A stretch of DNA of 64,000 nt from Scilla litardierei (taxonomy: Eukaryota; Streptophyta; Magnoliopsida; Asparagales; Asparagaceae), in the NCBI GenBank assembly GCA_030789695.1, contig CM061141.1:194753689-194817688 (forward strand). The letters are read 5' to 3'. The notes beneath the pieces are model-generated. The model saw only the letters and a list, made by a program, of their open reading frames with translations, searched no databases and was not told the origin of the DNA. Numbering within the stretch: the stretch's first letter is position 1; each line of letters begins with the position of its first letter. Position numbers and translations under genes: made by a program. Shown piece by piece: positions 13,818-39,945 of the stretch.

Positions 13818-13845
13818 GGTTTTGTTGGTGGCCCATGCAGGTCCA
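13818..13845 (+). other. Degenerate primer binding site
   Basis: Directly after the 5' LTR the sequence reads TTTTGTTGGTGGCCCATGC. Related elements have TTTTGGTGGTATCAGAGC here. The alignment suggests a decayed or changed tRNA-Met site. This is inference. Confidence 0.4.
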
Positions 13846-16800: not shown

Positions 16801-17348
16801 ACGTGATGTGAATATATGGTGAACTATTTGCATGTATTGAATGACTATATATTGTGAAATTATAGTAGTGGTGAATGTACATTAGATATAGTGAACTTGA
16901 TTCAATAATGGTATGGTGTGACTATATGTGTTGAGATGCTTGGTATTGGATGAATATTAGAGGGTAGTATACCCTTGATGTTTGTGCATAGGTAGCTACA
17001 TATAGGTAGAGCGATGATTGTAATGGCTAAGCGTGAAACTATCATTATATAAGTATCTGAAATATTGTTTTGTGATTAGGTAGGTAGTAGCTGTTATATA
17101 AGGGATGTATGTTTATAGACCTGATTGAAATACATGTATGGAGTTGACGGACTATAATAGGTATAAGTGTATACGCACGTGAATGTATATATATATATAC
17201 GTGTTGGTAGTAATAATGTTTGACTACCTAGTGCATATATGAGCACTTGTAATGACTGTACTTGGTTTGAAATATAATGTGACTTGATTTGGGGTAGTTA
17301 CTAGAGCGACTAGATGTATTAGAAAGTCCGAGGACGGACTTTATTCTA
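13846..17348 (+). other. Non-coding interior of the Del-like element
   Basis: Two textures. About 13846-15540 is T/C-rich unique-looking DNA. About 15540-17348 is a TA/TG-rich stretch full of short TATATGTG-like words. The longest frames are under 90 codons and show no retroviral motif. The right half reappears reversed at 63356-64000. Confidence 0.75.
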
Positions 17349-17360
17349 AGGTGGGGAGGA
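17349..17360 (+). other. Polypurine tract
   Basis: AGGTGGGGAGGA lies immediately before the 3' LTR and gives the plus orientation. Confidence 0.8.
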
Positions 17361-20183
17361 TGTAACGACCACTTTTCGTCGTACGTTGTTCGTGCACGTG
17401 CTTTTGGCCGTGCACGTGTTTGCTTTAGACTTTATTTGTTTGTGAACACTTTTGTGTGATATGCCGTTGCGAACGTCACTGAGAGTATTAAATAGTGGCA
17501 CTATATTGGAACGACGTTCTCGAGTCGTTTTTCCACAATTTGATCTTACTCGATGAGACGTGACGATTCTCACTCTTGACGGGAGACGTTTCTATTTTTA
17601 GTTCCGTCGTCCGACGTCGAAACTGAGATCCGTCTTCTTAGTTAGCTCACATTCGTCGCCACGATCACAACGATATTTATTTTATAATTTTTGGAGTTTA
17701 TTTGACCACTTTTATAATTTTTACAAGTTTTATATTATTTTTAATAATTTATTTTTCAATTAATTTCGGCCAAATAAAATTTATTTGAGTTTAAAACGTT
17801 TTAAAGAATTTTTGAGCCAATTTCCAGCTCATTTGGACCAGGTCAAATCCTAGATTGGGTTGGAGAAGTTTAAATTCAAATTTCAAATCTTTTTGAACTT
17901 CTAATCCTATTAGATTTAGCCCTAGACCAAGTCAACCCACCTATACTATATAAGCAACACCTAGCAAGTCCTATTTTCCAAAGAAATTATCCCTAGCCCC
18001 TTCCAAACTCATTTTGGACGTTGCGACGAATCGTCGGAACGTTGCGACGTTCAGCCCCCGTACGACAGAGGAAAACAGCTCCGTTCGCCCGCCCCGACCG
18101 AAGCCCCGCTCCGCATCCAACGCCGCCCGCATCGCAGCACAGCGCCCCGCTCGCACCCGTGTCCGACCGAGAAGAACTCTCGGTCAGACCGATAGCGTGG
18201 CCCGCTCACGCTCCCGCCCCGCACCGCAGCTGTCGCCCGCTTCGTCCCCCGCTCCGCTCCGTGCCCGACCGAAGGCCCCGCCCGCTGTGACCGAGCGCCC
18301 GAGCGCTGCAGCGCTGCAACGTTGTCTCGCCCGCATCCTAGCGAACGACCGAGGGTCTCTATCGGTCTGACCGAAGGAAAGCGCCGCACCCGAGCTGCTG
18401 CACGCCCCCAACGCTGCAACAGCGCCGCCCAACGTGTCTGACCGAGCCATCTCCCCGCACCGAGGCTGTACGACCGACGGCCATTCGTCGCAACCCCGCA
18501 CCCGTCGCACCACTTGCCACCGTGGGCCCCCCAAGTTCTCCAGAGTTATTGTGGGTCCCCCAAAGGCCCCTAGGACTGCTGTGGGCCCCACCTAGGTGCT
18601 TGCTCTTCGAGGATCCGTCGCGTACGACGTCGTCGCACGTCGTAGCCCGTCATCGCACGTGCTAGCTTTGGAATCTGGAACCGTCGCCCCGGTTGAAGCC
18701 CTGAATTTTCCAGCGAGGAATATATTTTGGAATCAGGACTTGGAGCGCGTTCTATTATTCCAACCCCCGGTGTCGCTACCCGACGCCGGTGTAGCTTTCG
18801 CGTCGTGATGAGGTAACGTTTTGCACCCCTAGGACCCCCAACCCAATTGCATGCTAATAAAGACTAAAAATCAGTATTTTAAAGTATTTTTAAATGTTTT
18901 AGAAGTCACTAATCAAGATTAATAAAACGGATGTAGGCCGGTGGACTTGTGCACGTAGGAATCGTGACTTTGGACTCGTTGGACGGTGTTTTCTTGACGT
19001 GATAGTTGCAGGCAAGTGAAACTTGCCAACTCTTGTGTAGGGCCATGTTTTTAGGCCACTTACTCGCTTTTAGCGTAAAAGAGACTAGTCGGTGAAATGA
19101 TAGCTGACTAGACGCCTACTTGATCTAGTTTGACAACGAAACTAGATCCGTCACCTAAATGATCTAGCTTGACAACGAAGCTAGATCCAACCATTAAAAT
19201 TGTCATTCATGCATGCTAAACCGTCACGTTTACTTTTCTTACTTGTACGCTTTACTACTTGCCATGCCATGTCATCCATGCATTGAATGTTGCATCGTAG
19301 CACACGCTACAATACTTGTCCTTGTACTACTCGTCCGGCTAGGTGCACCCCTACGCCATACTTGTTTACACACTTCCTGGCTCGTGGTCCAGAAGCGAGC
19401 ATTCCAAGTTCGGGGGTAAGGCCCTGGCTCGATACACGTGGAGGGGTAGGGATAAACGGTTACTTGAGCTTAGGAGTGGCCTGATCCGCCCTCTAGCCAA
19501 AGGACGGAATCTCTGTGCACGAGGTGCTTACTTTCCTGTCTTGTACTTGTCTTGTGAATGCCATGCCATGCTCGTACTTTACTTTACTTTACTTTACCTG
19601 TTGCACTCATACTTTAAACTGCCATGTCATCGCATTCATGCTAGAACTGCTAGGTTGTTCACTTTACTTTCAGTTTCCTTGCACAAGTCTCTTGTAGACT
19701 TGCTGACATGTGCCCCTTGCTCTTTTGGGTGTCACATGTTAGACCTGAGCCAGAGATCGTTGCTGAGTACGTGATGCGTTGCTGACGCTGAGTCTGAGTC
19801 CATGATTGCCAGGAGGATTTTGGTGGACACCGGTGACCATGCTTTGAGTTTTTGTTGAGCTTTATGTTGTTTTAGGCCTTTTGTTAGTTGTTGGTGCGTA
19901 GCACCGTTGTTTTGTACTTTGAACTTTTGTTGGCCATGTTTGGGTCTTTAGACTTTTTCTTTTAGCCTGGTGGCTTTTCTGCGATGTTGGAAACTTATTT
20001 TATGGATATTCTGAGATGTCTCTTTTGTCTCATTTCATTATTATTATCTTTGTTTCGTTCCCGTTGCAAGGACCTGCAGTTTTAAATTTGATTGACGCTT
20101 ATCGGACTTAAAGCTTTGCAGCTTCAAGTCTGAGCGGACCTTCTCACGCTTCGCTCCACATTTTTGGGAAGCAGGGCGTGACA
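17361..20183 (+). repeat. 3' LTR of the Del-like element
   Basis: 2823 bp, direct repeat of 11002-13817. It differs mainly by an extra 8 bp in the CpG block near 18310-18320 and about 13 substitutions. It is followed by the GCCTT duplication. Confidence 0.92.
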
Positions 20184-20508
20184 GCCTTGTTGCCAAGTTT
20201 CCCCGCTGAGAAGCTTTGTACCCTCACAGCATCTTTGTACCTATTACTCATTCAAAATTTGTATGGGCATTAGACCCTCCTTTTTCAATTCATACATTAT
20301 TGTAACTATTCTGAGACTTGAGATTGTAATTAATTAAATTATCTGTGTTGTTTGAGTTGCATGCAAGAACCTGCAAGTGTTATCACAAACGCTTATTGTG
20401 CTTAAACCAAGGAGGAAGAAAAGAAAAAAATACCTCCTTCTTGTTTTAAGCACATGCGGACCCGCTCGCGTCCTCGCTCCCAAGTACAATGGGAAGCAAG
20501 GCGTGACA
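20184..20508 (+). repeat. Right piece of the interrupted Del/Tekay-like LTR
   Basis: Continuation of 10234-11001 after the nested element. It ends GGGAAGCAAGGCGTGACA, a standard right LTR terminus of this lineage, exactly where LINE coding sequence begins at 20509. The LTR element therefore cut a LINE. No coding sequence. Confidence 0.6.
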
Positions 20509-21892
20509 ATTTCTCTCCCAGCACAACGAACTGGTTCAAACTAGGCTCTTGTGCAATTTTAGCAGTTTCAGTCCCCTCCCGGATTAGAGAGTTTAGGGGT
20601 TGTTTCTCTAATCCAACGTTCCCAGGGGTATCCCCCAACATATTTCCGGCGGGGGATAATACCACTACAGGCCTATCAACCTGCATATGAGAGAGATCAG
20701 AAGTTTGGATTGAAGGCCGCTCGAAAGTTGTTACTTTTGATGGACACTGAGCATCAATATGCCCAAAAGAAGCACACCCACCGCATCTCGGTGGCTCGCC
20801 CTCGTATTTAACATCTACATTTATATATAATTGATCATCCAAGTCAACCAACACAGTTCTCAGAAGAGGAGCTTCAGCCGTGACTTCCACCAGACAACGA
20901 GCATATGAGATTTTATCAAGATTTGATGTAGCTTTGTCAAGACATATGGGCGTCTCCACACCACTAGCGATGATGTTCAGAATGTCGAGGGTCCACATTG
21001 AGAGAGGGAGATTGTGAAACTGAACTCAAATAGGAACTGCAGTAAGGATTTCACGTCTGTGTTGGGTAGTTGGTGTCCATGTTTGGAGGACCACCAGCCT
21101 GCCATCAAATAACCAAGGCCCTCCATGGAGAATATTATCCCGATCTACAGCATTCTCAAATCTGAAATAAAAATAACCATTCTCACGAGAGAAAATATGA
21201 AGTCCCCCTTTAATTCTCCATAGGCGCTCTGTCCACGCTTTAATCTGACCAAAAAACGGAACATCGCCTAAAACGTAACCCACTAGAGTATTCTGCCAAC
21301 GAAAAGCACCTGTTTCTACCATTGAAGGTGCAACCCTGACCTTAGCAACACCATCAGATTTGCTGATGGGAGGTATGAGTGTCATCACCAGTGGGTCAGC
21401 ATATTTGCGTCGATTTGCACAAATATCTACGCAAGACTTCTTATTACCAGAAGGGCTAATCAGGATGGTAGATTGGGGCCTGACAGGTTTCCTCTTAAGC
21501 ATATTTGGGAATTTAGAAGATATCGAAATACCTTCTTTAATAAGGGGAACTTGATTCTTAACAATGGATGGCGTAGATCGCTTGGGTTGATTCTGATCGA
21601 GATTCCAATGGTTGATCGGTGATGGCCTGCCAAACTTCTTGAAACCCCCACGACGAACAGGTCCCTGATTAGGCCCACGACGAATGGGATAACCCTCGAA
21701 ATACCCTCGAACGGAAGGGGCTTTCTTCCTCGCATAAGACACACGCATCCAGTCTTCATCTCCATCCGCATTGTGTTCATTCGATGTTGCCTTTCCAGCG
21801 TCCAAAGACTTGTCGATGCCACCTTCACCAGCCACACTAGGGCACGTCGTCGCCTGAGATTTCCCAGCTCCAGAAAAAATGCTCTCTCCCAT
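20509..21892 (-). pseudogene. LINE-A ORF1 (nucleic-acid-binding protein), broken
   Basis: The minus-strand frame starts at ATG 21892 and runs to 20509 with one internal stop, TGA at 21026-21028, at a place where related ORF1s have Trp. After a basic N-terminal region (about residues 60-130) comes the DUF4283-like domain (VGYVLGDVPFF, then RLWRIKGGLHIFSRENGYFY and GGPWLFDGRLVVLQ). A CCHC knuckle follows (CGGCASFGHIDAQC, near 20770-20810). ORF1 proteins of plant L1 LINEs bind the element RNA. The C-terminal end is lost: after 20509 the frame runs into the LTR. ORF2 is not found nearby. The start codon directly abuts a TATATATA run. Confidence 0.85.
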
Positions 21893-21901
21893 ATATATAT
21901 A

Positions 21902-21930
21902 CTAGTCATAACCCGTGCCCGCGGGCACGG
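21902..21930 (-). other. Helitron 3' terminus: palindrome plus CTAG
   Basis: CCGTGCCCGCGGGCACGG (21913-21930) is a perfect palindrome and, read on the minus strand, is followed by GTTATGA and then CTAG. Hairpin, short spacer and CTRR end are the defining marks of Helitron 3' ends. Confidence 0.65.
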
Positions 21931-22021
21931 TTCATTTAAGATTTTCCCCCGCGAAATCTGTTTTCCCCAAAAAATTATTTCCACCGCCAAAATTTTAAAG
22001 AACAGCAAATTAGCGTAAAAA

Positions 22022-22545
22022 TATTTAGTGGCATGGGCGCATTTGGCACGGGCAAATTCGGCACGGACGGAACAACAAATTCGATGCGGGCGCCTTCAAA
22101 TTAGTGTAAAAATATTTAGTGGCATGGGCGCATTCGATGCGGGCAAATTCGGCACGGGCAAATTCGGCACGGACGGAACAACAAATTCGATGCGGGTGCC
22201 TTCAAATTAGCATAAAAATATTTAGTGGCATGGGCGCACTCGGCCTGGGCACCTTCTGCGCGGAACAACAAATTCATCGTGGATGCCTTCGACGCGGAAC
22301 AACAAATGTGGCACGGGCGCCTTCGGCAAATTCGGCGTAGAATAACAAATTCGGCGCATGCGTCTTCGGCGTAGAACAACAAAGTCGGCGCGGGCGCCTT
22401 CGGCGCGGAACAACAAATTAGCATAAAAAAATTCGCCACGGATGCCTTGAACGTGGAACTACAAATTCGGCACAAAACAACAAATTCGGTGCAGGCGTCT
22501 TCGGCGTGGAATAACAAATTAGCGTAAAAAATTTAGCTCGCGCCG
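22022..22545. repeat. Tandem array with ACAACAAATTCGGCG core
   Basis: Three copies of a unit of about 90-105 bp start with TTTAGTGGCATGGGCGCA near 22024, 22115 and 22224. They grade into shorter units built on GGAACAACAAATTCGGCG and GGGCGCCTTCGG. It is GC-rich in an AT-rich setting and lies close to the Helitron 3' end. The 133-codon minus frame here is a by-product of the repeat. Confidence 0.75.
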
Positions 22546-22940
22546 AAAGCGTGGACCAACAAATTCCGTGTGGAACAACGTGCGGGCTACCGAAAAGAGT
22601 TGTTCCCTCCAGATTTATTCCACACCAAATTTAAATTTTAGGTCCATATAAATGTAGTTCCTCAAAATTTTAAATTAACAACTACATTTAAAGTTTTAGA
22701 TTAACAACCATATAAATCTTAGTCAACAACCACATTCAAAAAAATCCCTCAATTATTTGGGTGCGAACAGTTTGCACGTCATTCTGTTCGCAAAACACAC
22801 ACACACACACAACCCCCCCTCTCTCTCCCCACATCCTCATCTTCCTTGTTTCTCATCTTAATCTTAAAGAAAAAAGAGCAGGGTGTGGAATCTTATCTAT
22901 CTCTCATCTCAATTCGCATTATATCTCCTTCTCCGTATCT
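22546..22940. other. AT-rich spacer with (AC)n run
   Basis: Contains an (AC) run at about 22795-22811, a pyrimidine-rich stretch and repeated AACAACCACAT-like words. No gene seen. Confidence 0.5.
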
Positions 22941-23100
22941 TTTCTTTCCTTAGATCATCACCAATCAATTCAATTATTAAGTGATTTCCATGTTGATTTT
23001 GCAAGTTCATTTCATGGTTTTTTCTTTCCTTAGATCATCACCAATCAATTCAATTATTAAGTGATTTCCATGTTGATTTTGCAAGTTCATTTCATGGTTT
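22941..23100. repeat. Perfect 80-bp tandem duplication
   Basis: 22941-23020 and 23021-23100 are identical, starting TTTCTTTCCTTAGATCATCA and ending TTCATGGTTT. The lack of any difference suggests a recent event. It lies in leader-like, pyrimidine-rich DNA of the Helitron. Confidence 0.9.
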
Positions 23101-23598
23101 TTGTCATACAGTCTATTTAATTTTGTTTTCTGTATTAGGGAACCCAATAAATAAATTACTAGATGAAGCACATCAAACAAATGGAGTCAATCAAGGCACC
23201 GAAGATTTATTCACCACCCTTGATACCTACATATGCCACATCATGGTATGCCTAACAAAGCCTCATTTGTCTTTTTTTGCAGTGGCTACAAAATGCAGTT
23301 CCAATTTTCCAAGCTAGAAACTCAAGAAACACCACAAACTCAACATACATATTAATAAGAATGAATTTTATGCATCGATTGATATAAAAGATACATACAA
23401 AACATTTCAAGACATTTCTGGCCTATTCTCAAAACAAAAGAGCATATGAATAGCATGACAAATAAACTGATACTAACCATTAAAAACAGAAAAAGAAAAG
23501 AAAAGACAACATAATCATAAATACACGTCTTCTATACATGATCATCATTCCATATATGATCATAAATACATCCGATTCTGTTGTTGTTGCTTGCCCCT
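23101..23598. other. Spacer, no supported gene
   Basis: A 64-codon plus frame at 23123-23317 contains an exon-like open stretch (23139-23245) bounded by AG and GT. The only pairing acceptor would leave a 37-nt intron, shorter than plants normally splice, and the peptide is unrecognised. Confidence 0.4.
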
Positions 23599-23780
23599 TT
23601 ATCTTCTTTGGAAGTTGAATGTCTTAATAGAAAATGCAAATACCACAGCGAAGATCACAGTGAATCCAACCATCGCAAGAGCAATCCATCCCAAGGAGTC
23701 GTACCTGAACCCAAAGTGGTGCCCACTGAATTCAGACCCAAGATTTCCAAGCAAAACAGACAAATGATGCTTTCATGAAA
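23599..23780 (-). pseudogene. Last-exon fragment of an ABCG (PDR-type) transporter
   Basis: The minus frame ending at TAA 23599-23601 encodes FGFRYDSLGWIALAMVGF, then a hydrophobic segment and the terminal IKTFNFQRR. Plant full-size ABCG/PDR transporters end with a last membrane span and a basic FNFQRR-type tail preceded by an FGF-x-x-D-x-LG segment, which matches well. Only about the final 40 residues are convincing; upstream residues may be intron. No nucleotide-binding domain lies nearby, so this is a carried fragment, not a gene. The nearest PDR relative cannot be named. Confidence 0.6.
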
Positions 23781-24501
23781 TATTTCTTAGTAACATGTGT
23801 GATAAGATCTTTGAAATCAAGAGCAAAAAGATAATGAATTGTAAGAGAAATCAATTTATAGATATCCAGTAGCACCAACATCTTGAGGATTAAGGATGCA
23901 AACAAAAATTAAATTCTGAAACATCACAGTTTTTGATGTTTTGTTTGTTTTCAGAGTATGTAGCTTGAGGCCTAAAATAGTGCAATAGATTAATGAAACT
24001 TATTTTTTCTTCTCTCTCTTGCACTCACTCTATACATATTTCCATTTGCCCCTAAAACAACTGAATACTCATCTAACAGAATGAAACTGCACTACTAATT
24101 CCCATTTACATTCCCCCATGAAATTGCGGAATATTCATTTGACAAAATACAACTGTAGTACAAATTCCAAGCAACCAAGAAAACTTTGGACCAAACAACA
24201 GAAATGACAACTTTTAAGAGCTGTTTTAGAAATGCCACAGAGCTATTTTAGGTTTGACAAAAACACAACACACATAATTTATGTCTTCATTCTTAAGGAA
24301 AGAAAGAATACATAAGCATCATATACAAAGATTGAGGACATGCATTCTGTTTAGCTTCTGTTTACAATTTATAACCACTTGAGATGTAGCATTCAGTTGA
24401 AACTGCGAACTTAACATAAAAATATAGCTGGCATGAAGATTGAGGATGCAAGTAATAATAACTTAACATAGATTTGTTTATATAATCTGTAAAACACTCA
24501 C
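23781..24501. other. AT-rich Helitron interior
   Basis: No recognisable coding or repeat structure. It could hold intron sequence carried along with the flanking exon fragments. Confidence 0.4.
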
Positions 24502-24555
24502 CTCATTATATATTTCAAGATATGAGACACACAGTAGAAACTCTCTTCCCGGAAT
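24502..24555 (-). pseudogene. Kinesin-7 motor-domain exon
   Basis: On the minus strand an 18-codon open segment reads IPGREFLLCVSYLEIYNE. It is preceded by a pyrimidine-rich TTTCTTGGCAG acceptor and followed by a GTGAGT donor. SYLEIYNE is a hallmark of the kinesin motor domain, and the PGREFLL-x-VSYLEIYNE context is that of plant kinesin-7 proteins. The usual Arg after FLL is Cys here. Exact splice borders suggest that genomic DNA, introns included, was carried in. It is an isolated exon, so no functional motor is encoded. Confidence 0.8.
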
Positions 24556-25240
24556 CTGCCAAGAAACCCAAGTATTAAAGTTACGCTCATATAGAAATTA
24601 AGAGCATTTGAAATTTGCACTATAGAACTAACAGGCAACAGCTACAACTTCAGCAGCAGTATCAAATTCATTCTTGTGTTAATAAGTATTTTCTAATTAT
24701 GCAAGTTACATGTGGCATTTAGAAGTTCATTTTTTTCCCATATTGGTGAGATGACAATAGAATCAAGGATCACAAAGCTTGCACTATCAGATTATCTTGG
24801 CAAACAACCTATGTGTCTTTCATGCATCCTGAGGGTATTCCAACAGCTCAACTGAGGGTATTCGTTTTATTTCCATCCACCTTTATTCATAAAACTGTCT
24901 ATTAGCCACTAAAAGCATACCTCTATGAAGTCATGGGCATCAGCTCTCATGGGCATTTTTTTAGACTTCAGGTCATAAAAAAATTTCGTTGCTAGCAGTT
25001 CATTAAAATTACAACTCATGGGCATTTAATGATATTGCAATGAATTGGAACGAAAAATCAATTTTAAACTTCATAGATTGACCCGTGTACCTTGAAGATG
25101 AATTGCAAAGAAAAAAATCAGATTACTTGTCACTTTATTGGGGTCTCAAAACTATTTGATTTTAGCAAAATCTGTATCTTAGTTTCTTTACTCAAAAGAT
25201 AAATTTGTTCACATTGAACAACTTCCTCCTAATTTAGCAT
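24556..25240. other. AT-rich Helitron interior with one further exon-like segment
   Basis: A minus-strand segment 24991-24921 is open, bounded by AG and by a GTATGC donor, and contains KKMPMRADAHDFIE. I do not recognise the family. The rest shows no feature. Confidence 0.3.
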
Positions 25241-28200
25241 TTTGTAATTATTCTAAATGGTCACGGTATGATAATCATATAATCGATATAATGATGAATT
25301 GCATGAAAATTGATGTGGTTCATGAAAATTGATGTGGTTCACTTTGTAGTTTTTCTTGATATCACAAAATATGATTTGGGACACTCTTAAGGGTATGCAG
25401 TGACTATTTGACCTGTGAAAGGCTTTTGAAAATACCAAACAAAATGGAGATGTATATGCCTTTATGCCTTGATTTGTATAGCTGCAATAATTTGATTAGT
25501 ATCTCATACTTGAGATACACATATATGGAATCAAATTTAACACATTAGCTAAATTATGCAAGATTGAGTTCACATAGGATATCCTGCAACAATAACACAT
25601 ATCTTGTATCTCAATTCTCAAGTTCATCATTCAAAATTTAAAATTCATGATTTACAGGATTAGATGAATGATATGCAAAATTCAGTTCATCATTCAAAAA
25701 ATTTAACATTCATGTTCAAAAATTTAACATTCATCATTCAACAATAACACATATCCTGTCTCCAAAATGTTAATTCATCATCATATCCTGTCTCAAAACT
25801 TTTGTTTCAGGATATGTGTTAACACTCTTGAGACAGAATATCAAAATTTAACATTCATCATTCATCATTCAAAAATTTGAGATAGAATATCAAAATTCAG
25901 TTCATCATTCAAAATTTAACATTCATGATTTATAGGAAATCAAGAAAGAAATTTTTGAGATAAATGAAGACAGAAATTTACAGGATATCCTCATGACCAA
26001 TAACAAAAATGAGAATATCCTCAAAAATCAGAAATAACAAAAATTTAAGTAAGGTTACTCAAAATTCATAACAAAAGTGTTAAAAATGAGATATCCTTTG
26101 TCATGAGATACACATAAATGTGTTCCTTATCTCAAAATTTAAAATGAGATACTCAAAATTCAAACTATACTTGAAATTGGAAGTTGGAATTTCAGTATAG
26201 CTTTCAGTATACTTGGAAAACAATTGCAACTTCCAATTGCAACCAAGCTTGGAAAACAATTGAAACCATTCCAAACTATTCCAAAAATTCCAAATTTCAA
26301 TTCAAAAATTGTTTTCAGTCCATTATCAGTACATTTGAATATCAAAAACAATTGACAGGATATTCATTATCACTCCATTGTTTTTTATAATGGATATCAA
26401 AAACAATTGACAGGATATTCATTATCACTCCATTGTTTTTGACAGAATATCAAAAACAATTGACAGGATATCCATTTGAATATCAAAAACAATTTTCAGT
26501 CCATTATCACTCATTTGACTATCAAAAACAATTGAATTTCAATTGCAATTTCAATTCAAAATTATACTGAAATTGTTGAATCCAAAAATGAATATCCTGT
26601 CAAAGTTTGAAATTATACTAATTTTGAATGGACTAATTATGAATAAACTGTCAAAAATTGAATGGACTAATTATGATAATGGACTAAGTACGATGGACTA
26701 ATTATGAATAATGAATATCCATTATCAAAATTTTTGACAGGATAATTTTGAGAATGATGTGATAATGGACTAATTATGAATAAACCAAGCTTGTAAATTC
26801 AATTTGAGTACAAATTTGTAAATTCAATTTGTAAATTCAATTTGTACTCAAATTTGTACTCAAGTTTGTAAATTGAATTTGTACTCAAATTTGTACTCAA
26901 ATTTGTAAATTTGTAAACTCAATTACTGAGTTTGAGTAAAAATTTGTAAATTTGTAAATTGAATTTGTAAATTTACAAAACTCATAGTTTGTAAATTGAA
27001 TTTGTAAATTTACAAAATTTGTACTCAAAAAAATTTGCACTCAAAATTGACTTTGTAAATTGAATTGGTAGATATCTGAGAAATTGAATTCAGTATCTTA
27101 CTTTATGTTATCAAATGAAAATCATGTTTGGGATATCTACAAATTGGATATTTCATAAGTTAATTTGCACTCTCAAGCTCGGTTTTTTGCACTCTCAAGC
27201 TTAGTTGATATCCCAAACAGGATATTAACAAAACTGGTTTATATTAACAATTTCTCAGCATCTAGAGTTCATATTGAGTGATAGTGCAAATTGGATATGA
27301 ATTTTTGATATAAGCAGCTTGAATTTTCCAACTTGAATGGCAGTGTGGAACATTCATTTCATATTAGTTGCTCATTTCAGTTTGCAAAAAAAACATGGAG
27401 AAATCAGTTTGGGATAGCTAATTGATAACCTGATTGGGTTAATAAAAAACTGAATTGAAGTTCACATAAAGTTTAAATTGGGATATCAAGATCAGGATAT
27501 AAGCATCTTGAGTTCACATAAAGTTAAATGAATTCATTTGCTCATTTCAGTTTGCAAAAAAAACATGGAGAAATCAGTTTGGGATATCTACAAATATACT
27601 CCCTAGCATTATCAGGATATAATGTATTCACCCAGTACAAAATCCACAAAGTACACATAGTTCAAACAGTTGATGAACACTGGAATATTGAGTTAATATT
27701 GAGTGATAGTGCAAAATCCTCAACAGTTGATGAACACTAGAATTTTCAAACTAAACCAAACTAAACCTCAAAGTACACATATTTCAAACTAAACCAAACT
27801 GAAATAAGATTGTGCAAACTGAAAAAACATGATTTTCAACAAAGACTCAAAGATTTCAGTACATCAATAATCTCTACACATGACACATTTGCATTCCCCC
27901 TGCAAAATCTCACCTCTGAGGTTTTCAAACTTAATTAAGTCAGATAATCCTATAACTAAAATCATATCAATGTTTTCAAACTTAAGTTGAGAGATATAGA
28001 TGAAATGCTCATTTAGTATTCATTATAATGAGGTGAGAGATATTAAAATTTCACTAAAATATAGCCTTCAATTCATGTTGCATTTCAGTGTCATGCAAAA
28101 ATGATATTTAACAACCAATCTCACCTATCTTTAGCATATCATCAAATACCATATCTTTAGCATATCATCAAATACCATATCTTTAGCATATCTTTAGCAT

Positions 28201-29227
28201 ATCATGGACAATAAAAAAACATGGACAATAAAAAAATTTATTGTATTCTCACCTATCTTTAGCATATCATCAAATACCATATCAACATTGACAAAAATTT
28301 TAAATATTCTCACGGAAATATTATTCAACTTGCAATATAGAAAAAAACCTCATTTTTCAGTTGGTTTAAACAAAGCTGCCTTGAAAAACCCTCATTATTC
28401 AACTTGCAATAAACAGAGAAATGATTCATAACAATAAAAGCAAGCTCATTCTTAAGCAATATAAATGATTCATAACCACCAATTCTCTTATCCAAGCAAC
28501 TTGCTTTTATGGTTATCCATTATATTTGCAATTCATCATGTATAAGCAACTTCAGGTTATCCATTATATTTATGTAAGAATGATCTATTATCCAATTACA
28601 CATAACACCCAATTACACATAAACATAACACCCAATTTATATGTGTAATTACACATAAATTCAGCCCTAAATGAGTGAAGCAAATATTAGAAGCATGTCA
28701 ATTACATATGCAATAACATGGCAATGACAGGATTAGTGGTGTGACAGGATTTTGGAAATTTGCATGAAAGTGTCCTGTTAAAAAATAACCAAAATGAAGC
28801 AAATCAGCAAGCTCTCATCCAAAATTAAAATTTTCATTAACAAATTAAAAAAATCATCAAGCTCTGATCAAGCTCTTATCAGCAAGCTCTTATCATTAAC
28901 AAATTAACAAATTCATATTAAAAAAAATCTTCACAGGACACTGTCATGCAAAAATGAAGAGCTTATCAAAATGATTTGTTTAAAATCCTGGCAATGCATT
29001 GTCATGTGAAATGATTTGGTTTTATCACATTGTTTGAAATCCTGGCAATGGCAATGCATTTCTGAAATGAATTTGCCAAACTATCACATTGTTTGAAATC
29101 ATGGCAATGGCAATGCATTTCTCAATGTTTGAAATCCTGGCAATGGCAAATTCATTGTTTGAAATCATGACAATGCATTGCCAGGAATGCATTGCCCTGT
29201 GAATTTGAAATGAATTTGAAATGAATG
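25241..29227. repeat. AT-rich, locally repetitive Helitron interior
   Basis: Long AT-rich DNA with several local repeat families: AGGATATTCATTATCACTCC units at 26340-26480 (about 54 bp apart), TTTGTAAATTGAATTTGTA units at 26800-27070, a near-identical block of about 50 bp at 27368-27416 and 27537-27586, CATATCTTTAGCATATCATC units at 28125-28290, and GGCAATGGCAATGCATT units at 28990-29200 that resume after the gypsy insertion at 36670. No gene seen. Confidence 0.6.
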
Positions 29228-30277
29228 TGAAACGTCTATTTTGCGGAGGCCCAAAAACATCGGCCCAAAGGCGCAGCCTACTACGCGAAATCATGGGAGG
29301 CCCAAGCCCACCAAACGAAGCCCGAAAGACACGAGCCCAGATACCCGGCTGCCGATCAGAAGCCCATCTGCGTGAGCAGGCCCGCCCGACGAGGCCCCAT
29401 AGAGGACCCCTGAATATCGATCCGACCCGACCCCGATAACGCGCAAGACACTCGCCCACTCCAGCGATAACCGTTCCCCCGATCCCGTTACCACTTAATG
29501 GCCATTATGGGGAGGTGCTGGCATGGCACAGGGAGCGGCGATGGGGAGGCGGATTGAGGGGGCACGATCGGGGACGGACGAGGGACGTGGGTCGTGGGCA
29601 ATCACGACGGGAGGCCTATAAAAGGGCTAGGAGGGCGACTGGACAAGGGACTGCATCTGAGGTAACGAAAACCTAAGGTACTCCATCAACGACCTAGTTC
29701 CCCCATTTCATCTCCTTCCTCCCCCGCCCACGCCGGTAGACGTCGTTCCGATCTCCTCTCAAGTTGAACCGTCTCCGCCGAGCCTCCTCTTTCAGATCAT
29801 TGTCTGACTTAGGCATCGGAGGAGATTTGGCCGGAACCAAGGTCCGGCCCCCCTGACGAGTGCTCTCGTCTGCACAGGAGGACGTCAAATCCACGGGCCG
29901 AGGCTTCCCCTCCGCCCCACGCCAGCCACGCATCAATCAAGACGACCGAGGCTACCCCTCGTCGTCCGACCGACCGAGGCCGAGCACGACCGTTCGAGCC
30001 GAGGCTTCCCCTCCGCTCACAAGGCGTCGAGGCTACCCCTCGTCGTCCGAATGTCCGAGGCCGAGCGTCTCACACCGGGTCGAGGCTTCCCCTCACCCTC
30101 CTCGTGGCCGAGGATCCAGATCCGGCCCAGCCGACGTGCTCCACGTCATCTGCAACTCCGATTCACGCCGCGTTGGCGCAGACCCGACACACCCGAGGGA
30201 CCCAAGTCGGCCCCTTGACCACGTTGACCGGGTAGTCCACGGTCAACGCTTTTGTAGTGAGAAAACACTCTGAAACA
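29228..30277 (+). repeat. 5' LTR of the Tat-like element
   Basis: 1050 bp starting TGAAACGTC and ending GAAACA. It contains a CCTATAAAAGGG TATA box at about 29617-29628 and later a series of CGAGGCTTCCCCTCCG / CGAGGCTACCCCTCGT units. The 137-codon frame here only reflects this repeat. Confidence 0.92.
29616..29630 (+). promoter_or_regulatory. TATA box of the Tat-like LTR
   Basis: GCCTATAAAAGGGCT sits about 390 bp into the LTR. The same box is in the 3' LTR near 36001-36015. Confidence 0.7.
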
Positions 30278-30297
30278 TCTGGCGCCGTCTATGGGAA
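30278..30297 (+). other. Primer binding site of the Tat-like element
   Basis: TCTGGCGCCGTCTATGGGAA directly follows the 5' LTR and matches the TGGCGCCGTCT-x-TGGGG class common in Tat/Retand elements. Confidence 0.8.
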
Positions 30298-31966
30298 CGA
30301 ACTGTCCCACGAAGAAGCAAACCGCACTTGCAATGGCACGCGCCTACAACGGAAAGAGACGCATGCCCCCCATCCCGGAGGAGGGGAACGGTGCACCCAA
30401 CAGCAACCTTGAGGGCGCGCCCGACGGCAATCACCCCGCCCCCTCGGCCGAAGAGACTAGCGGGTCGGAGCTGGCCACGCAGGGGCAGCTCCGCGCCCTG
30501 GCCCAGGAGACCAACGCGAACATCCAGACGTTGGTCACGACGGTACAGCAGCTCATCGGCGCTGCACCAGCCAACGGAGACGTGTTGAGCGACGGCCATC
30601 GTTGGGCGGGGGCCCCCCGCTCCTACGATCCGCTGTGGTTGATGACCATGGGAACCGAAGACCGAACACGGAGCGTCGGTTCACACTGCCCGGCTCCCAT
30701 CAGGCGAGATCACGCGCCTCCTCCCCTTATCATGAGAGGAGCCAGAGGGAAAACGAGTACACTGGGGACGAATCAGTGACCGCTTCATCTCGCCGGCCAC
30801 GATCACCCCACCACATAAGGAGCGATCTGCACCACTCAAGGGACCGATCACGGTGGAGCGGAAGCTCCCGCCGGAGGAGCCGGGAACGCCGGGTCAGCCC
30901 CGCCCCCAGTGTGGCGAGGGCCGTGGAGCCAGCCCAGCCAGCGCCTGTGCCGCCGCCACAACCGAACGAGCCTGAGGTAGGCGGGTGTCGGACCCCCAGA
31001 GGCATTCACGGAGACCGGTGCCCCCTGTCGCGGAGAATAACCGACGCGCGGGTCCCCTCCCGATTCAAGATCCCAACGCTGGGGAAGTACGATGGGATAG
31101 GAGATCCAGGGAACCACGTGATGGATTACGAGGGGGACATGTCATTCCAGGGAGCCGATGATGACCTACTCTGCAGGGGCTTTTATTCGAGCCTCTGGGG
31201 AGCGGCGAGAACTTGGTACCGCAGCCTATCCAGCCGCTCCATTGACAGCTTCGAGGAACTCACCCAACTGTTCTGCAAACAGTTCATGGCAGGGCGACAG
31301 GTAATGCCTGATGTTGAACATCTGTTTAACATAGTGCAGGGCCCGACCGAGCCGCTCTGACAATTTATGCGCCGCTTCAACGCTGAACGGCTGAACGTAA
31401 ACAGCCATCCCGACCTTGTAGTCTAGACGGCCCTAAAGAAAGGGCTGCATCATAGAGGCCTGAAGAAATCTCTGCATAATGATCCCCCGAAAGACCTGCC
31501 TGGGATCATGGCGAGGGCCGATCGCTTCATGCTGACCGAGGAGACCTTGGCCATCGAGGCCGGAAAGGCCAGACGAGGGACCAAGCGCGGCGATAGCGAG
31601 CGTCGCAGCCCCGAAGGGTACCAGACAGAGAAGAGGGCGAGAAACAAGCAGCGGAGAGAGGATACAAGGGACAGCACCCCGGACGCCGTCCTCACTCAAG
31701 TGCAGAAGGAAGAGCGCACTGATCGCCCCCCGCCGAAGGCAAAAAGAGGCAGGAAAAATGGGGAAAATTATTGCAAATACCACAAGGACAACGGTCACGA
31801 CACTGAAGACTGCTGGCACCTAAAGAAGGACATTGAGAAGCTGATGAGCCGAGGGCACGCAAGGAACTTCGCCGATGACCAGGCCCACGGAGAAGGAACA
31901 TCCATGCAGCCGGATAAAGGGAAGAAGGTCAACACCATTCAGGGACCCCTCCGCATCATAGAGTGA
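30291..31966 (+). pseudogene. gag: Tat-type gag with a frameshift and two stops
   Basis: The N-terminal part is open from about 30291 to 30779. The rest is in another frame from about 30602 to 31966, so a frameshift lies around 30640-30700. The main frame then carries two stops, TGA 31358-31360 and TAG 31424-31426. Domains: a Pro/Arg/Ser-rich N-terminal region, the Retrotrans_gag core (PTLGKYDGIGDPGNHV to SFEELTQLFCKQF), a basic linker, and a Cys-His motif CKYHKDNGHDTEDCWHL near 31775-31825, typical of Tat/Ogre gag. It would encode the particle protein but is inactive here. Confidence 0.85.
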
Positions 31967-32200
31967 GCAGGCCAGGCCCCTCCCCCCGGTCGCCGCCTAG
32001 TCAGGAGGAGATTATCTAGGTTCACATCCCTCCGACTAGCCTTATTTCCTTTTTTCCTCCAAATGTACTAGTCCAGTAGGACCTTCAAGAGTATAAATGC
32101 ATTCCTTTTACCTTTTCTTCATCTCCGACGGAATCAAAGTTTCGCTAAGGGTGTATAAGAGTGAAGACCGCCACCTCACCGGGCGAGGAGTCAATCGAAA
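31967..32200 (+). other. Spacer after gag
   Basis: GC-moderate DNA between the gag stop region and the 90-bp array. No frame. In complete Tat elements pol would start here, so the deletion of pol falls at or near this point. Confidence 0.5.
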
Positions 32201-32610
32201 CCGGTCCTAAGCCGAGGAGCTTCGCCCTCGCTGACCGACCCCTTCACCCGTAAGTTTGGGGGCAATTCCCCCAGCTAGCGCAGACGCCGACCGGTCCTAA
32301 GCTGAGGATCTTCGCCCTCGCTGACCGACTCCACCGCTCGTAAGTCTGGGGGCAATTCCCCCAGCCAGCGCAGACGCCGACCGGTCCTAAGCCGAGGAGC
32401 TTCGCCCTCGCTGACCGACTCCACCGCCCGTAAGTCTGGGGGCAATTCCCCCAGCCAGCGCAGACACCGACCGGTCCTAAGCCGAGGAGCTTCACCCTCG
32501 CTGACCGACCCCACTGCTCGTAAGTCTAGGGGCAATCCCCCAGCCAGCGCGGACGTCGACCGGTCCTACTCCGTTGCTCATAAGACTGGGGGCAGCTTCC
32601 CCCAGCCCTC
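32201..32610 (+). repeat. 90-bp tandem array
   Basis: Units start with CCGGTCCTAAGCCGAGGAGC at 32201, 32291, 32381 and 32471, with a decayed fifth at 32560. Each also holds TAAGTCTGGGGGCAATTCCC. The constant 90-bp spacing and high identity suggest recent expansion. It lies between gag and the antisense gene. Confidence 0.9.
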
Positions 32611-33132
32611 AAGAACACCAACCGACTCGTCCACTCAAGGGGCAACCTCCCGGAGAAAGGAGGCGAACGACCATCGTCAGCAGAGGAGCCGAGGTCGCGA
32701 CAACAGAGCAAGATGCGTGGAAGATTCAAGTAAGTCAATTTCATTTCCAACAATTAACCAAGGTACAAAAGTGTGTCTTATTTACAGGAAATCGAAGTGG
32801 AGAAACCTCCTTACAAATAATCCGCTCTCGGCGGACAACAAAATTCGTCACCTACAGAAACTAGGGTAACGCCGACGGAGCAAAACTTGTCGACCAAGAA
32901 CACAAAGTTGCGGGCTTAGGCGATCATCCTTGCAATCAGCAATTGTTCGCTTCGAAGCAGAGAACCGGTAAAGAGGCCAATGGAGATTGCAGGGCCAGGG
33001 ATCCATTTCGAGTAGACCTGCCCAAAGCGAAGCGGATGCTAAAAAATTTGAGGATAAAAACAAGGATGACAGGCCGGGAAGGACGACCTAGGGGGCCCGG
33101 GCTTGGGAGGATGCATCCTCGGGTGCCTCGCC
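32611..33132. other. Non-coding stretch between array and antisense gene
   Basis: Contains a decayed edge of the 90-bp repeat and an AT-richer stretch (32720-32860) that would be the 3' trailer of the antisense transcript. No supported gene. Confidence 0.5.
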
Positions 33133-35243
33133 CTACTCAGAGCGAGGGGGATCGACAGGCGGAGGAGCTTGCCGGACTCGCTCCGCACAATCCCAGTAGG
33201 AGGACTGGACGACTTCGACGATCCGGGGGCCGATAAGGCCTTCATATGTACCGAAGGCTTCCCTGAGGACCTCGAAGATCCTCTCCCCCAGAGTCCCGAC
33301 GACGCCCCTCTCCACCTCCTCCGCAAACCGTGCCACCTGACGCCGATCCGACAATTCCCTCCGAAGCTCCTCCCTCTCCAGGCGGAACGACTCCGCTGCT
33401 TCCTCAGCCGACTGCCGAGCGTCCTCCAACTTTCCCTGGAGGTCACCCACTCGTCCCTCTAGCTCGGCCACCCGGAGCTTGAGTTACCGAGACTCCATCT
33501 GGGCCTCCACCATAGCCACCTTCGCCGCCCTGGCCCGCTCGTGGGCCCTCGCAGAGGACTCCTCCAGCTCCCTCAAATGGACAGCTCGACGCTGCGACTC
33601 AACAGCGAGCGTTGAACCCTGAAAGACAAGCCATGAGCCAAAAAAGAGAGCGAAGGAAAGGAAAGGACAACAGGATAGCTAAACATGTTGAAGGATCCAG
33701 ACCAAGGAGTCTGACACCTTGTCGGCGGGGATCCTCTCGAGGAGACTGCGGTCCCGGGGGAGGACGGAGCCCTCAGCGAACTGCTGAGCCAGGGCTCGGT
33801 CGACAAACACCGAACCCCCGGGGGTGACCTCGAGGGAGGCCGAGCTGCTCGCCAACAGGGCACCGATTCCCGGTAATGGAGACGGAGACGCTACGACGGG
33901 GGTGGTTGTCAGGGCCACCGGAAGATCCCCGGCGGTCGCCGCTGGGGGCACGGAGCACACCGGACTGGAGGGATCCGCACCTTCCTTCCTCCTTTTCCCT
34001 CCATGAGGCTCGGTAGGCTCCGAAGGGGAGCGCTTCTGCCTCGTGCCGTCTCCACCTTTGGGGACAATAGGGGGCACGCCAAGCGCAGGAGGAGCAGCCC
34101 CGGACCCGTCGTTACCCCCCGCCACTTGGGCTGGGGGGACGGATCCGGCCCTTGCGACCTCCCCGGGGAGGAGACTACCAGAAGAAGAGGCGGGAGGTGC
34201 AGCCACCACCTTGCCCACAGCGGGCTCGGCTCGGCGCACCTCCTCCTCAATGGTCCGCTGAGGTGCACTTCCCGAGGTACTACCTCGACTCCGAGCGGCT
34301 CCCCGACGAATCAGCTCATCAACATTGCGGGTGAACTCGCGACCAGCCATTCCTGCAAGGGAAACCGAAATCAGGGTAAGCCACGGGGCAATCCAGGACT
34401 GAAAAAGCGACCTACCCGGAGACCACAAGACGGCCTTCAGGAGTAAGTCGTCCAGCAAAGGCCAGATAGACTTCGCCTCCAAGGGGAGGGCCGACAACAG
34501 CATGACGGCAGCCTGATCAGCCTCAGAGAGGGTTAGCATTGGGCAAGGCCGACCCAACTCCCCCCCCAACCTGTCAAAATCTGGGCATCCTCCAGGAAGA
34601 CCACGAAGACATAATCCGAGCTCCAATTCCCCGACCAGCGGGGTAGCCCGATCAGGCATTCCTTCCCCGCGCGGGCTCAGAGGTGCAACCATGACCCTGA
34701 ACCAACCGTCTGAACCTGATAAAAGTAGAAGAGAAGGGGGAGAGATGGCTCCAGACCGCGAGTGCAGCAGAGCATCACAAAGCCCGTCAGAACCGCAATT
34801 GAACAGGGGGTGAACTGGCAAAGGGGCACCATGAGGTACTCCATGACTTGAATGAAGAAGGGATTGAGCAGGAAATGAAGACCCAGGCAGAACATCTCGA
34901 CGTAGACGCCGACTTCATTGCTCCTCGGAAGACAGATCCACTCGTCGATGAAAGGGACTCGAACATCATACGGGTAACTGAGATACTTTCCCCGGATCTC
35001 CGCAGCCGCTAGAAAAGAACTCCTCGACGGCATTTTAAGGACAACCGGAGGTACATTAAGCCACACGGCAGCTGACACCACATCATCGCCGGCATAGTCT
35101 GGGAAGAGCTTTCCCTTCCCTTTATCTCGGAGGAGACGGCTCCCTGAGGAGGAACCGGATCCCACAGATCGAGGCCCGCCCCGCCTGGACTCAGGAGGAT
35201 CCCTCGCCCCTTGGACAGAGCCACCTATCCCAAGAGCAGCCAT
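33133..35243 (-). pseudogene. Antisense gene of the Tat element (Transposase_28-like protein), broken
   Basis: Starts at ATG 35243 on the minus strand. The N-terminal 188 codons contain RGKYLSYPYDVRVPF, DEWICLPRSNEVGVYVEMF and LCQFTP, matching the 'putative gypsy type transposon' (Transposase_28) family. Near 34710 a one-base change shifts the frame; the continuation runs to 33679 through a Pro/Ala-rich, basic region. Two short introns fit: 34415-34353 (GTAGGT..TTGCAG) and 33684-33619 (GTTTAG..TTTCAG). The last part is a coiled coil (ELEGRVGDLQGKLEDARQ) reached only past TAA 33484-33486. The role is unknown. One frameshift and one stop make this copy a pseudogene. Confidence 0.8.
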
Positions 35244-35614
35244 AATATGAAGATGGGAAAGGAGTTACCTTTTTTCTATTTGGAGAAGACGAGGAAACGA
35301 GGGCGGCAAGAGACTCTGAGTTTGTGGAAAGCCCGGAACAGAGGGAAGAATGAGGAAGAAGTTAGGATCAACGCAGCCAAGGCACTTATATACAAGGCCC
35401 AGGGGGGAATTCGAAATGCCTGACAGGAACTCATGGCAGGCCTCAAAGAGCCGGCGGCATTTCGAAATCGGCGCCAAGGGAAGTCCAATCGATCCGCCTC
35501 ATCATAACCTTCATTTATGACCGCGCCTCGACTGACGCGCCACTCGGAACCCCAGGAGTCACATCGGTCGAGCCGAGCTGGCCAAGGCCGATCGGCCCCA
35601 CTGATGGGGGCAAT
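35244..35614 (-). other. Promoter region of the antisense gene and 3' end of the element
   Basis: Holds the antisense TATA box and upstream DNA, then the purine tract TGATGGGGG (35602-35610) just before the 3' LTR. No separate gene. Confidence 0.6.
35385..35393 (-). promoter_or_regulatory. TATA box for the antisense gene
   Basis: The minus strand reads GTATATAAG about 145 bp upstream of the antisense ATG, inside the element and independent of the LTR. Position and form fit a plant core promoter. Confidence 0.55.
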
Positions 35615-36664
35615 TGATACGTCTATTTTGCGGAGGCCCAACAACATCGGCCCAAAGGCGCAGCCTACTACGCGAAATCATGGGAGGCCCAAGCCCACCA
35701 AACGAAGCCCGAAAGACACGAGCCCAGATACCCGGCTGCCGATCAGAAACCCATCTGCGTGAGCAGGCCGGCCCAACGAGGCCCCATAGAGGACCCCCGA
35801 ATATCTATCCGACCCGACCCCGATAACGCGCAAGACACTCGCCCACTCCAGCGATAACCGTTCCCCCGATCCCGTTACCACTTAATGGCCGTTATGGGGA
35901 GGTGCTGGCATGGTGCAGGGAGCGGCGACGGGGAGGCGGATTGAGGGGGCACGATCGGGGGTGGACGAGGGACGTGGGTCGTGGGCAATCACGACGGGAG
36001 GCCTATAAAAGGGCTAGGAGGGCGACTGGACAAGGGACCGCATCTGAGTTAACGAAAACCTAAGGTACTCCATCAACGACCTAGTTCCCCCATTTCATCT
36101 CCTTCCTCCCCCGCCCGCACCGGTAGACGTCGTTCCGATCTCCTCTCGAGTCGAACCGTCTCCGCCGGGCCTCCTCTTTTAGATCATTGTCTGACTTAGG
36201 CATCGGAGGGGATTTGGCCGGAACCAAGGTCCGGCCCCCCTGACGAGTGCTCTCGTCTGCGCAGGAGGACGTCAGATCCACGGGCCGAGGCTTCCCCTCT
36301 GCCCCACGCCAGCCACGCATCAAGCAAGACGACCGAGGCTACCCCTCGTCGTCCGACCGACCGAGGCCGAGCACGACCGTCCGAGCCGAGGCTTCCCCTC
36401 CGCTCACGAGGCGTCGAGGCTACCCCTCGTCGTCCGACTGTCCGAGGCCGAGCGTCTCACACCGGGTCGAGGCTTCCCCTCAACCTCCTCGTGGCCGAGG
36501 ATCCAGATCCAGCCCAGCCGACGTGCTCCACGTCATCCGCAACTCCGATTCACGCCGCGTCGGCGCAGACCCGACACACCCGAGGAACCCAAGTCGGCCC
36601 CTTGACCACGTTGACCGGGTAGTCCACGGTCAACGCTTTTGTAGTGAGAAAACACTCTGAAACA
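35615..36664 (+). repeat. 3' LTR of the Tat-like element
   Basis: 1050 bp, direct repeat of 29228-30277 with about 34 differences and no length change. It starts TGATACGTC, ends GAAACA and is followed by GAATG. Confidence 0.92.
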
Positions 36665-36669
36665 GAATG

Positions 36670-38108
36670 CATTGTTTGAAATGAACTTGAAATCCTGGCA
36701 ATGGCAATGCATTGTCCTGTGAAAATTTGGCATTTTTATCTAAATGGATTCAAACTCTTACCCAAATGATAATGTGAGACTAAATTTCAAACTCTTACCC
36801 AAAACCAATTGCACAAAATTACACATATTGAACCAATTGCACCAAATCATTTTATTGAATGAAGATCATTTCAGGATAGTCAATTGGTTATTGGTTATTG
36901 ATAAGAGCTTATCAGGAATGAAGCTTATCATGAATTGGATAGTCAATTGGTCAATTGGTTATTGGTTATTGGTTATTGGTTAAAATTTTCATTAAAAAAA
37001 TCATCAAGCTCTGATCAAGCTCTTATTGGTTATTGGTTGTTGAAATAAAATTAACAAATTCACATATGAGATATTGGTTATCGACATTCCTTATATCATT
37101 TTTGATAACCCAATTTTGCAATACATAGAGAAGTGAATTTTGCATATGAAAAAAACAATTTTTTTGGGTCCTGTCAATGAGAATTATAACAACAGAATAA
37201 TTGAATACATAATGCAAATCATTGGCATTCCAAGCAAATTGACATTGATCTCAAATTATCAAAGTATCATTTCAAATGAACTCATGGGCATTCAAATTTT
37301 AAATTTATACAAAGAACCATTTCAAAAACTCAAACCTGAAACATTCAAGCTGAAGCTTGCAATATAAACTTGATGTGAAGAACTCAACACTTTGGTTTTG
37401 CAGGACAAAATTGTGAGTGCGAAATAAATTAAAAGAAAAGATGAGTTCTTGATGTGCTTGCCTTGATCTCCTTGCTCTCCTTGCTGGAGGTAGAAGAGGG
37501 TGCTTGAGCTCTCCCGTGATGAAGCTCAAACAGCTGAACTTGCGTGATGTTGCTGGAAAACCAAGAAGCTCAATCAGCTCTCCCGTTGATGTGAGGTAGA
37601 AGATGGTGCTGGAGGTAGAAGAGGGTGCTGTAGGGGGATGGTGCTGGAGGTAGAAGAGGGTGCTGGAGGAGGGAGAAGATGATGGTGAGGATGGCGAGAA
37701 GGGAGCTCTGATGTTAGCTGCTTGATTTTGGCGCGCAAAGGCAAGAAGGAGAAAGAGAGAAGTTCAAATAGGGATGTTGATCTTTCGGTGATGAAAACAA
37801 TTGATGTGATCAAAATTTGTTTCCCCCTCAATGGTGATGTGATCAAAATTTTTTCCCCCTTCCCTTGGTGATGAAAACAATTGATTTCAAATTTAAACTT
37901 ATTTCAATTTCTCTTATCTCAATTTCTCATACCCCATATACACAAATCTATACAACAATACCCCATATTATACATAACCAATATCTCTTAACCAATATCT
38001 CTTATCCATTATCTCTTAACCAAAATCTCTTATACAACAATACCCCATATACAAATCTAAACATAACCAATTTCTCTTGTCCAAAAACTCTTATCCAATT
38101 TCTCTTGA
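36670..38108 (-). other. Right part of the candidate Helitron
   Basis: AT-rich continuation of 29227, sharing the GGCAATGGCAATGCATT repeats. It has TTGGTTATTGG repeats at 36880-37050 and GAGGTAGAAGAGGGTGCT copies at 37488-37660. From 37900 on, TATCTCTTAACCAA / TTTCTCTTATCC words fill the last 200 bp up to the proposed 5' terminus. The 90-codon Pro/Ser-rich minus frame at 37846-37574 comes from the GGTGCT repeats. No gene supported. Confidence 0.5.
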
Positions 38109-39455
<1,347 letters not shown>

Positions 39456-39540: not shown

Positions 39541-39543
<3 letters not shown>

Positions 39544-39942
39544 GTAAAGTGTTCCTAGGGTGACTCATTAGATTCAATCTAAGGAGTCGCCCCCATTTTC
39601 TCCCATCTCCCACAATTTTTTGGATTTTATTTTTCATAGGATCGTTGGCCACATCATGGATGATCAACATACCAAAAATCAAGTCATTCCAATACTTTAA
39701 AAGCCCATATTTACCCCTTGCAACTTCAACGGTCTGAAGACATGCTGAAAAACCCAAAAAGTTGCAAGGGGTAGATGTGGGCTTTTAAAGTATTGGAATG
39801 AGTTGATTTTTGGTATGTTGATCATCCATGATGTGGCCAACGATCCTATGAAAAATAAAATCCAAAAAAATTGTGGGAGATGGAAGAAAATGGGGGCGAC
39901 TCCTTAGATTTAATCTAAGGAGTCACCCTAGGAACACTTTAC

Positions 39943-39945
<3 letters not shown>
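39541..39945. mobile_element. Foldback MITE 2
   Basis: 405 bp, same family as MITE 1: TGGGTAAAGTGTTCCTAGGG at the left and its complement at the right, again nearly fully self-complementary. The central arms differ from MITE 1, so the two are separate family members rather than one duplicated copy. Confidence 0.85.

Follow-up and report, generated by a model that had tools for sequence, protein, structure and literature searches.

The best-described counterparts of the element studied here are plant Helitrons of the RepHel type, such as wheat Xuan-Feng, which is reported to have 5' TC and 3' CTAG ends, a hairpin placed 11 nt before the 3' end, an A/T insertion site, and non-autonomous copies beside RepHel-encoding ones (PMC13286980). 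We analysed a stretch of 64,000 nucleotides from Scilla litardierei (contig CM061141.1; hereafter, the window) and its relatives in the same genome. The window very probably contains a copy of a Helitron family of this kind, with borders at 21902 and 38122, derived from a RepHel element. It differs from Xuan-Feng, in a comparison by features, in that most of the ends examined are in (TA)n tracts and the parent element is about 21 kb long. Maize Helitrons of up to 39 kb have been described (PMC6431247).

The window copy also resembles rice Mothra with its mother and sister elements, which are described as non-autonomous by loss of coding sequence, with a deletion derivative reported and an AT-rich, tandem-repeat-rich interior (PMC4683698). 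Unlike the situation described for Mothra, the relatives that share ends with the window copy carry Rep and helicase domains, and the window copy is a single deletion and no high-copy subfamily. A bypass of the 3' terminator has been described for Helraiser (PMC4778049), and one subfamily found here ('a') correspondingly has an internal CTAT end with a second palindrome and CTAG about 580 bp further on; unlike in Helraiser, this is seen in the sequence of other loci and not in the window copy, and six of nine cases have the internal palindrome unaltered. Finally, elements of TA microsatellites, namely MuTAnT and the Micron and TAFT elements cited with it (PMC4486113), likewise have ends flanked by (TA)n, but MuTAnT is described there as Mutator-like with terminal inverted repeats, whereas the present family has Helitron ends and RepHel.

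Termini of the Helitron copy

The 3' terminus of the window copy (21902..21930, minus strand) consists of a perfect 18-bp palindrome (21913-21930), a 7-nt spacer, and CTAG (21902-21905), followed by T. Both strands of the window were scanned for a perfect hairpin followed by 4-14 nt, CTRR, and T; among the eight sites found, only that at 21902 has a 9-bp stem, and no site with such a stem occurred in 20 first-order Markov shuffles of the window. The final 20-mer, GGGCACGGGTTATGACTAGT, is present in 11,249 copies in the 3.68-Gb host genome (7,266 contigs), counting the window and every exact 20-mer whatever bases come next (TATATATA, T after CTAG, or other), and the reversed control is present in none. 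This end had been proposed in an earlier interpretation of the letters alone (the sequence-only reading), which the genomic copies bear out on this point.

When the same genome was queried with the terminal 119 bp at 21902, 40 of 919 candidates were scored and 42 matches were listed. Forty of these matches, including that of the window itself, span the full query at 94-100% identity, and each starts from query base 1 or 2. Twenty 10-kb relatives, which stand next in the list after the window and form several groups, were fetched; in all ten copies of the CTAG type T directly follows CTAG, and a minority of the fetched ends have CTAT. The hairpin stands about 10-12 nt ahead of CTRR, as is usual in Helitrons. 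The abundance of the 20-mer and the shared starts of the relatives indicate that the border at 21902 is the real end of a very abundant family, with exceptions in the last base. Elsewhere in the window, two hairpins with 8-bp stems, at 17310 and 63361, look like a Helitron 3' end; they sit in the repeat pair 16698-20183 and 60513-64000, whose copies match in inverted orientation at 89%, and which is the same long repeat as the pair 11002-13818 and 17361-20184 (99.2% identical).

For the opposite end, the sequence-only reading had taken an A|TC motif, which the window does contain at 38108/38109, as the 5' terminus. A query stopping at 38108 gave 43 matches (40 of 1,763 candidates scored), and 18 of these were fetched with their flanks. 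In 18 of 18 the homology runs past 38108 through TAACATCC, so this A|TC is a chance motif inside the end. The full family end, A|TCTATATTATAAAA in the orientation of the element and then mostly CAGGGATGTTATC, is kept in eight of the 18 copies, with A before TC in all eight. Alignment of the window to a complete relative stops at 38122; of the true 5' terminus, therefore, the window has kept 38109..38122 (minus strand, AAACAGGGATGTTA), and the final 11 bp of complete copies, TCTATATTATA, are missing from it. The 5' TC is found in the family (8 of 18) and in the complete relative described below, and the motif at 38108 lies 14 bp off the retained end and 25 bp off the full one. The sequence-only reading had called for other copies sharing both termini: the 3' end is common to the 40 full-length matches, and the 5' end as proposed is overrun in every copy fetched.

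A RepHel-bearing relative and the internal deletion

The decisive evidence on derivation comes from a complete relative on another contig (C4:199217826-199256702; contiguous sequences L018, L047, L054, L055, and L056, with the 3' CTAG at base 301 and a complete 5' end at base 39177). The window copy (21902..38122, minus strand; C12:194775590-194791810 in the genome) is collinear with it at both ends, at 94-98% identity. Four blocks of the window align in order: 21892-26158 (98.0%), 26153-28062 (97.4%), 27760-29227 (98.4%), and 36665-38122 (94.2%). The middle of the C4 relative contains Pfam matches to PIF1 helicase (E 1.7e-72) and the Pif1 2B domain (E 1.4e-16) and pieces of Helitron_like_N (E 3.2e-9 and 4.9e-18), all in the Helitron's own orientation; PF14214 is found in L018/L047 and PF05970 in L018 and L017. 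Two further relatives contain a PIF1 domain (L017, E 1e-74) and a 2B domain (L011, E 2.9e-17). Rep and Pif1-like helicase are thus present as domains, with broken frames, in relatives having the same ends. The Helitron nature and the non-autonomy of the window copy, which had been suggested from the letters, are thus supported by other copies in the same genome.

The C4 relative is 38.9 kb long, of which 17.5 kb belongs to two nested long terminal repeat (LTR) retroelements, leaving about 21.4 kb. The first of these (C4:199230178-199239501) has unusually long LTRs of about 3 kb that are 99.0% identical; the second occupies C4:199239879-199248014. Both lie within L047, L054, and L055 and have 5-bp target-site duplications (TSDs), GATAA and GTCAC. 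Without its own nested gypsy-type element, the window Helitron measures 16,221 - 7,442 = 8,779 bp, in agreement with the size of about 8.8 kb estimated earlier, and about 12.3 kb of element sequence present in the C4 relative is absent from it.

The junction of this internal deletion is located at 26153..26158, with an overlap of a few base pairs. Three relatives (L011, L017, and L018) share window positions 21902-26158 at 97.5-98% identity and diverge beyond, and at the L011 locus a 5'-side match is found 23 kb downstream in the same orientation. A query across 26158 found 193 candidates, of which 40 were scored: 30 other matches cover the right side only, nine the left side only, and the window alone spans the junction. 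Position 26158 was rejected as a border of the family, because both sides continue in other copies and both are parts of one larger element. The idea that two unrelated Helitron families had contributed to a chimeric window element was dropped once the four-block collinearity with the C4 relative had been established.

Captured exon, nested retroelement, and flanks

The segment 23602..23772 (minus strand) encodes 57 residues ending in HFGFRYDSLGWIALAMVGFTVIFAVVFAFSIKTFNFQRR, followed by a stop codon (23599-23601). We take it for the C-terminal 57 codons, and thus the final exon, of an ABCG transporter of PDR type. The search of the host genome and the domain context of a relative support this captured exon, so that the element contains a fragment homologous to a host gene. 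In that relative, of 53% identity (L057), ABC2_membrane is matched just upstream of the exon in two frames: in the exon's own open frame at E 2.1e-5, which does not reach the curated cut-off, and in an adjoining one at E 4.6e-21. The Pfam PDR_assoc match of the exon is weak (E 0.049 and 0.039, below the cut-off), a protein database search with the exon yielded no candidate protein, and a PDB search with the exon fragment and with L057 yielded nothing relevant; the PDR label is in part our assumption from general knowledge of these transporters. Eighty matches to the exon are present in the genome, the window included (all 98 candidates scored). They comprise copies within the Helitron family and places of lower identity, among which those at 82-89% identity on contig C13 and elsewhere are candidates for the donor gene; the matches on C13 cluster at about 39.1-39.5 Mb. 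The exon is shared by the L011, L017, and L018 loci, the L018 copy having an in-frame stop, and so was probably captured before the window copy underwent its deletion.

The sequence-only reading had assigned at least two unrelated exons to the element, without coordinates, and only the PDR-type exon was recovered. A second candidate of our own, 23141-23239 on the plus strand, was rejected as unsupported: it has no Pfam match, and its frame contains a stop codon in all six relatives that have the whole stretch (L011, L012, L017, L018, L026, and L028). Four others (L009, L010, L022, and L023) match only its last 44 bases.

The nested gypsy-type element (29228..36664, plus strand) has a plus-strand gag and, on the opposite strand, a Transposase_28-like open reading frame (ORF) (PF03732, E 6.1e-8; PF04195, E 1.2e-7). 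Its two LTRs (29228-30277 and 35615-36664) are 1,050 bp each, begin with TG and end with CA, and are identical at 1,016 of 1,050 positions in a gapless alignment (Kimura two-parameter distance 0.033). The TSD GAATG flanks the element at 29223..29227 and 36665..36669, and a single GAATG stands in the C4 relative where the last two aligned blocks meet, representing the empty site. The TG..CA repeats and the 5-bp duplication are those of an LTR retrotransposon, and together with the empty site they confirm the gypsy insertion noticed earlier. The element is also absent from the corresponding place in L049 and L050, where the sequence is a variable repeat. In six ORFs tested, gag (PF03732) was found and no match to reverse transcriptase or integrase; with this interior (30461-35264), the element is possibly non-autonomous.

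Long interspersed nuclear elements (LINEs) adjoin the Helitron on both sides. The left flank (20405..21898, minus strand, antisense) contains a LINE-type ORF1 (DUF4283) in two frames (PF14111, E 2.3e-7 and 6.2e-16), adjoining (TA)n; the tract reported at this border is indeed there but is short, ATATATATATA. The right flank (38125..38960, plus strand) is the 5'-truncated 3' end of a LINE with zf-RVT (PF13966, E 2.1e-18), followed by (TA)n. Its homology to other LINE copies starts from 38125, and not at 38109 as had been read. In L051-L053 the LINE sequence continues upstream of 38125, which means that the window LINE is 5'-truncated against the Helitron. For three relatives of the right LINE, one fetched with 6 kb and two with 0.4 kb of sequence upstream, comparison with window positions 18000-21910 gave no nucleotide match at E 1e-6. 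Twin-priming of a single LINE as the source of both oppositely oriented flanks was ruled out by the unmatched left flank. Beyond the right LINE are two long fold-back elements (39052-39455 and 39542-39944) with arms of up to 193 bp, 97% complementary, and (TA)n between and around them; the same kind of fold-back element follows the LINE tail in L051.

Origin of the shortened copy and its (TA)n-associated family

We regard the window copy as genuine but unremarkable: it belongs to a kind already known, in a Helitron family of very high abundance, and is a non-autonomous derivative formed by internal deletion. Its borders as corrected here and the type of its parent are well founded. The copy lies on the minus strand, with its 5' end on the right (38122) and its 3' end on the left (21902), and the parent type is about 21 kb long and has Rep and helicase domains. 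The middle, with the entire Rep/helicase region, was very probably lost by an internal deletion that brought the 3' part (21902-26158) and the 5' part (26153-38122) together. Since the junction is found in no other scored copy, deletion in place after insertion is favoured over deletion during transposition. The shortened copy could then have moved, presumably in rolling-circle fashion, only with Rep/helicase supplied in trans by relatives. The gypsy-type element would have inserted later than the deletion-derived Helitron was formed, and the LINE at the right border may have inserted into, or been joined to, an already shortened 5' end.

Several observations weigh against this reconstruction. 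The 5' end in the window is incomplete. Exact CACGGGTTATGACT ends at the fetched loci (23 distinct) read AG|T in 19 cases, AT|A in three, and AG|A in one, so that T follows CTAG in 19 of 20 distinct CTAG contexts. The RepHel coding region of the C4 relative is scattered over several frames, and one ORF in it (L047:803-1516) has no Pfam match; given also the in-frame stop in its PDR exon, no intact autonomous copy is claimed there. As the junction occurs in the window alone among the 40 candidates scored, no second insertion of the exact deleted unit is seen. An empty site for the window Helitron was not found, either; the sequence-only reading had expected one joining the (TA)n to the LINE, a LINE that is 5'-truncated at the junction and whose relatives do not match the left flank. 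Among the 40 of 1,379 candidates that were scored, a joined-flank query for the C4 relative also gave no empty site. The sequences on the two sides of this relative (L018:1-300 and the end of L056, compared in L058-L063) are different repeats. Three other copies of the left-flank repeat read TTTATAAATATATTTG at that place, without a long tract; both copies read of the right-flank repeat have long (TA)n; and in the one copy followed for 1,450 bp beyond the left repeat, the right repeat is absent. Flanks are thus mismatched at both loci for which both ends are known: joining those of the C4 relative restores neither repeat, and those of the window are likewise unrelated. Recombination in TA tracts would be our guess at the cause.

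Two other explanations concern the origin of the junction, and they partly overlap with the favoured reading, which covers the family, the borders, and the RepHel derivation. The window might never have received one inserted element, if two Helitrons of the same family had inserted head-to-tail in one (TA)n tract and been fused by deletion. The uniqueness of the junction among the 40 scored copies, the different repeats on the two sides of the window, and the back-to-back ends seen elsewhere (L015; L029, L032, and L046), separated by a few bases or by (TA)n, are in line with such a fusion. We nevertheless consider it distinctly unlikely, because it requires an extra neighbouring copy, and the four C4 blocks are accounted for in order, orientation, and identity by one deletion within a single parent. 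Chimeric captures are known for Helitrons, and the few-base overlap at the junction would also be expected of template switching during rolling-circle replication, in which case the chimera inserted already deleted; the lack of a second copy with this junction (40 scored of 193) makes this rather doubtful. Very improbable, finally, is the element exactly as first drawn, a single Helitron at 21902-38108 that lies between (TA)n and a LINE and carries two or more unrelated exons. Its 3' border, gypsy insertion, and size are correct, but its 5' border is refuted by the 18 of 18 fetched relatives that run past 38108, the LINE is truncated at 38125 and has relatives without a match to the left flank, and one exon is supported and no second. 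Derivation of the window copy from a RepHel parent by one internal deletion remains our preferred account.

Outside the window, nine of the 20 relatives fetched with the 3' end (L009, L010, L012, L013, L014, L022, L023, L026, and L028) have CTAT in place of CTAG at the inner 3' end and share nearly identical 60 bp outside it. The inner 18-bp palindrome is intact in six of them and altered in L022, L023, and L026. Similarity to L002 runs on for about 580-607 bp in L003, L005, L006, and L007, and a second palindrome with CTAG about 580 bp downstream was located, by an exact-pattern search, in all of these copies (L002, L005, L006, and L007) except L003. The structure of the CTAT subfamily is such as a terminator-bypass model would produce; nesting of one Helitron in another would be a possible alternative. 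In addition, ends of different Helitron copies are neighbours in L015, L029, L032, and L046, where nothing but a few bases or (TA)n separates them, and two 3' ends face each other in L020 and L021.

The association of the family with (TA)n was quantified on the fetched copies, which are best matches and not a random sample, with the window alone as control. A TA run of at least 12 within 80 bp is present in 13 of 18 fetched 5' flanks versus 1.45% of 2,000 random window 80-mers, and a run of at least 8 within 40 bp in seven of ten 3' flanks versus 1.35% of 2,000 random window 40-mers. At the outer ends of subfamily 'a' (L002, L005, L006, and L007), unrelated flanks lead through TATATA to CTAG, with TA and then CA repeats in L002. 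We tentatively propose, as an idea with less than even chances, that this very abundant family (more than 11,000 exact 3' ends) selectively inserts into (TA)n microsatellites, and that the tracts thereby become places where Helitrons land and recombine again and again, accumulating end to end, exchanging flanks, and giving rise to internally deleted chimeras like the window copy. A precedent for microsatellites is a lepidopteran helitron-like element in (GAAA)n, known to us by its title in the reference list of PMC4486113. Among the literature matches listed, no title reports a Helitron of TA microsatellites, which, given the coverage of that literature, is weak evidence.

The window copy thus very probably shows how a single internal deletion in a RepHel parent, whose type can be identified, can give rise to a non-autonomous Helitron, into which a retroelement inserted later. 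The wider family adds a strong association with (TA)n and a subfamily that would fit a natural bypass of a 3' terminator without its last base.

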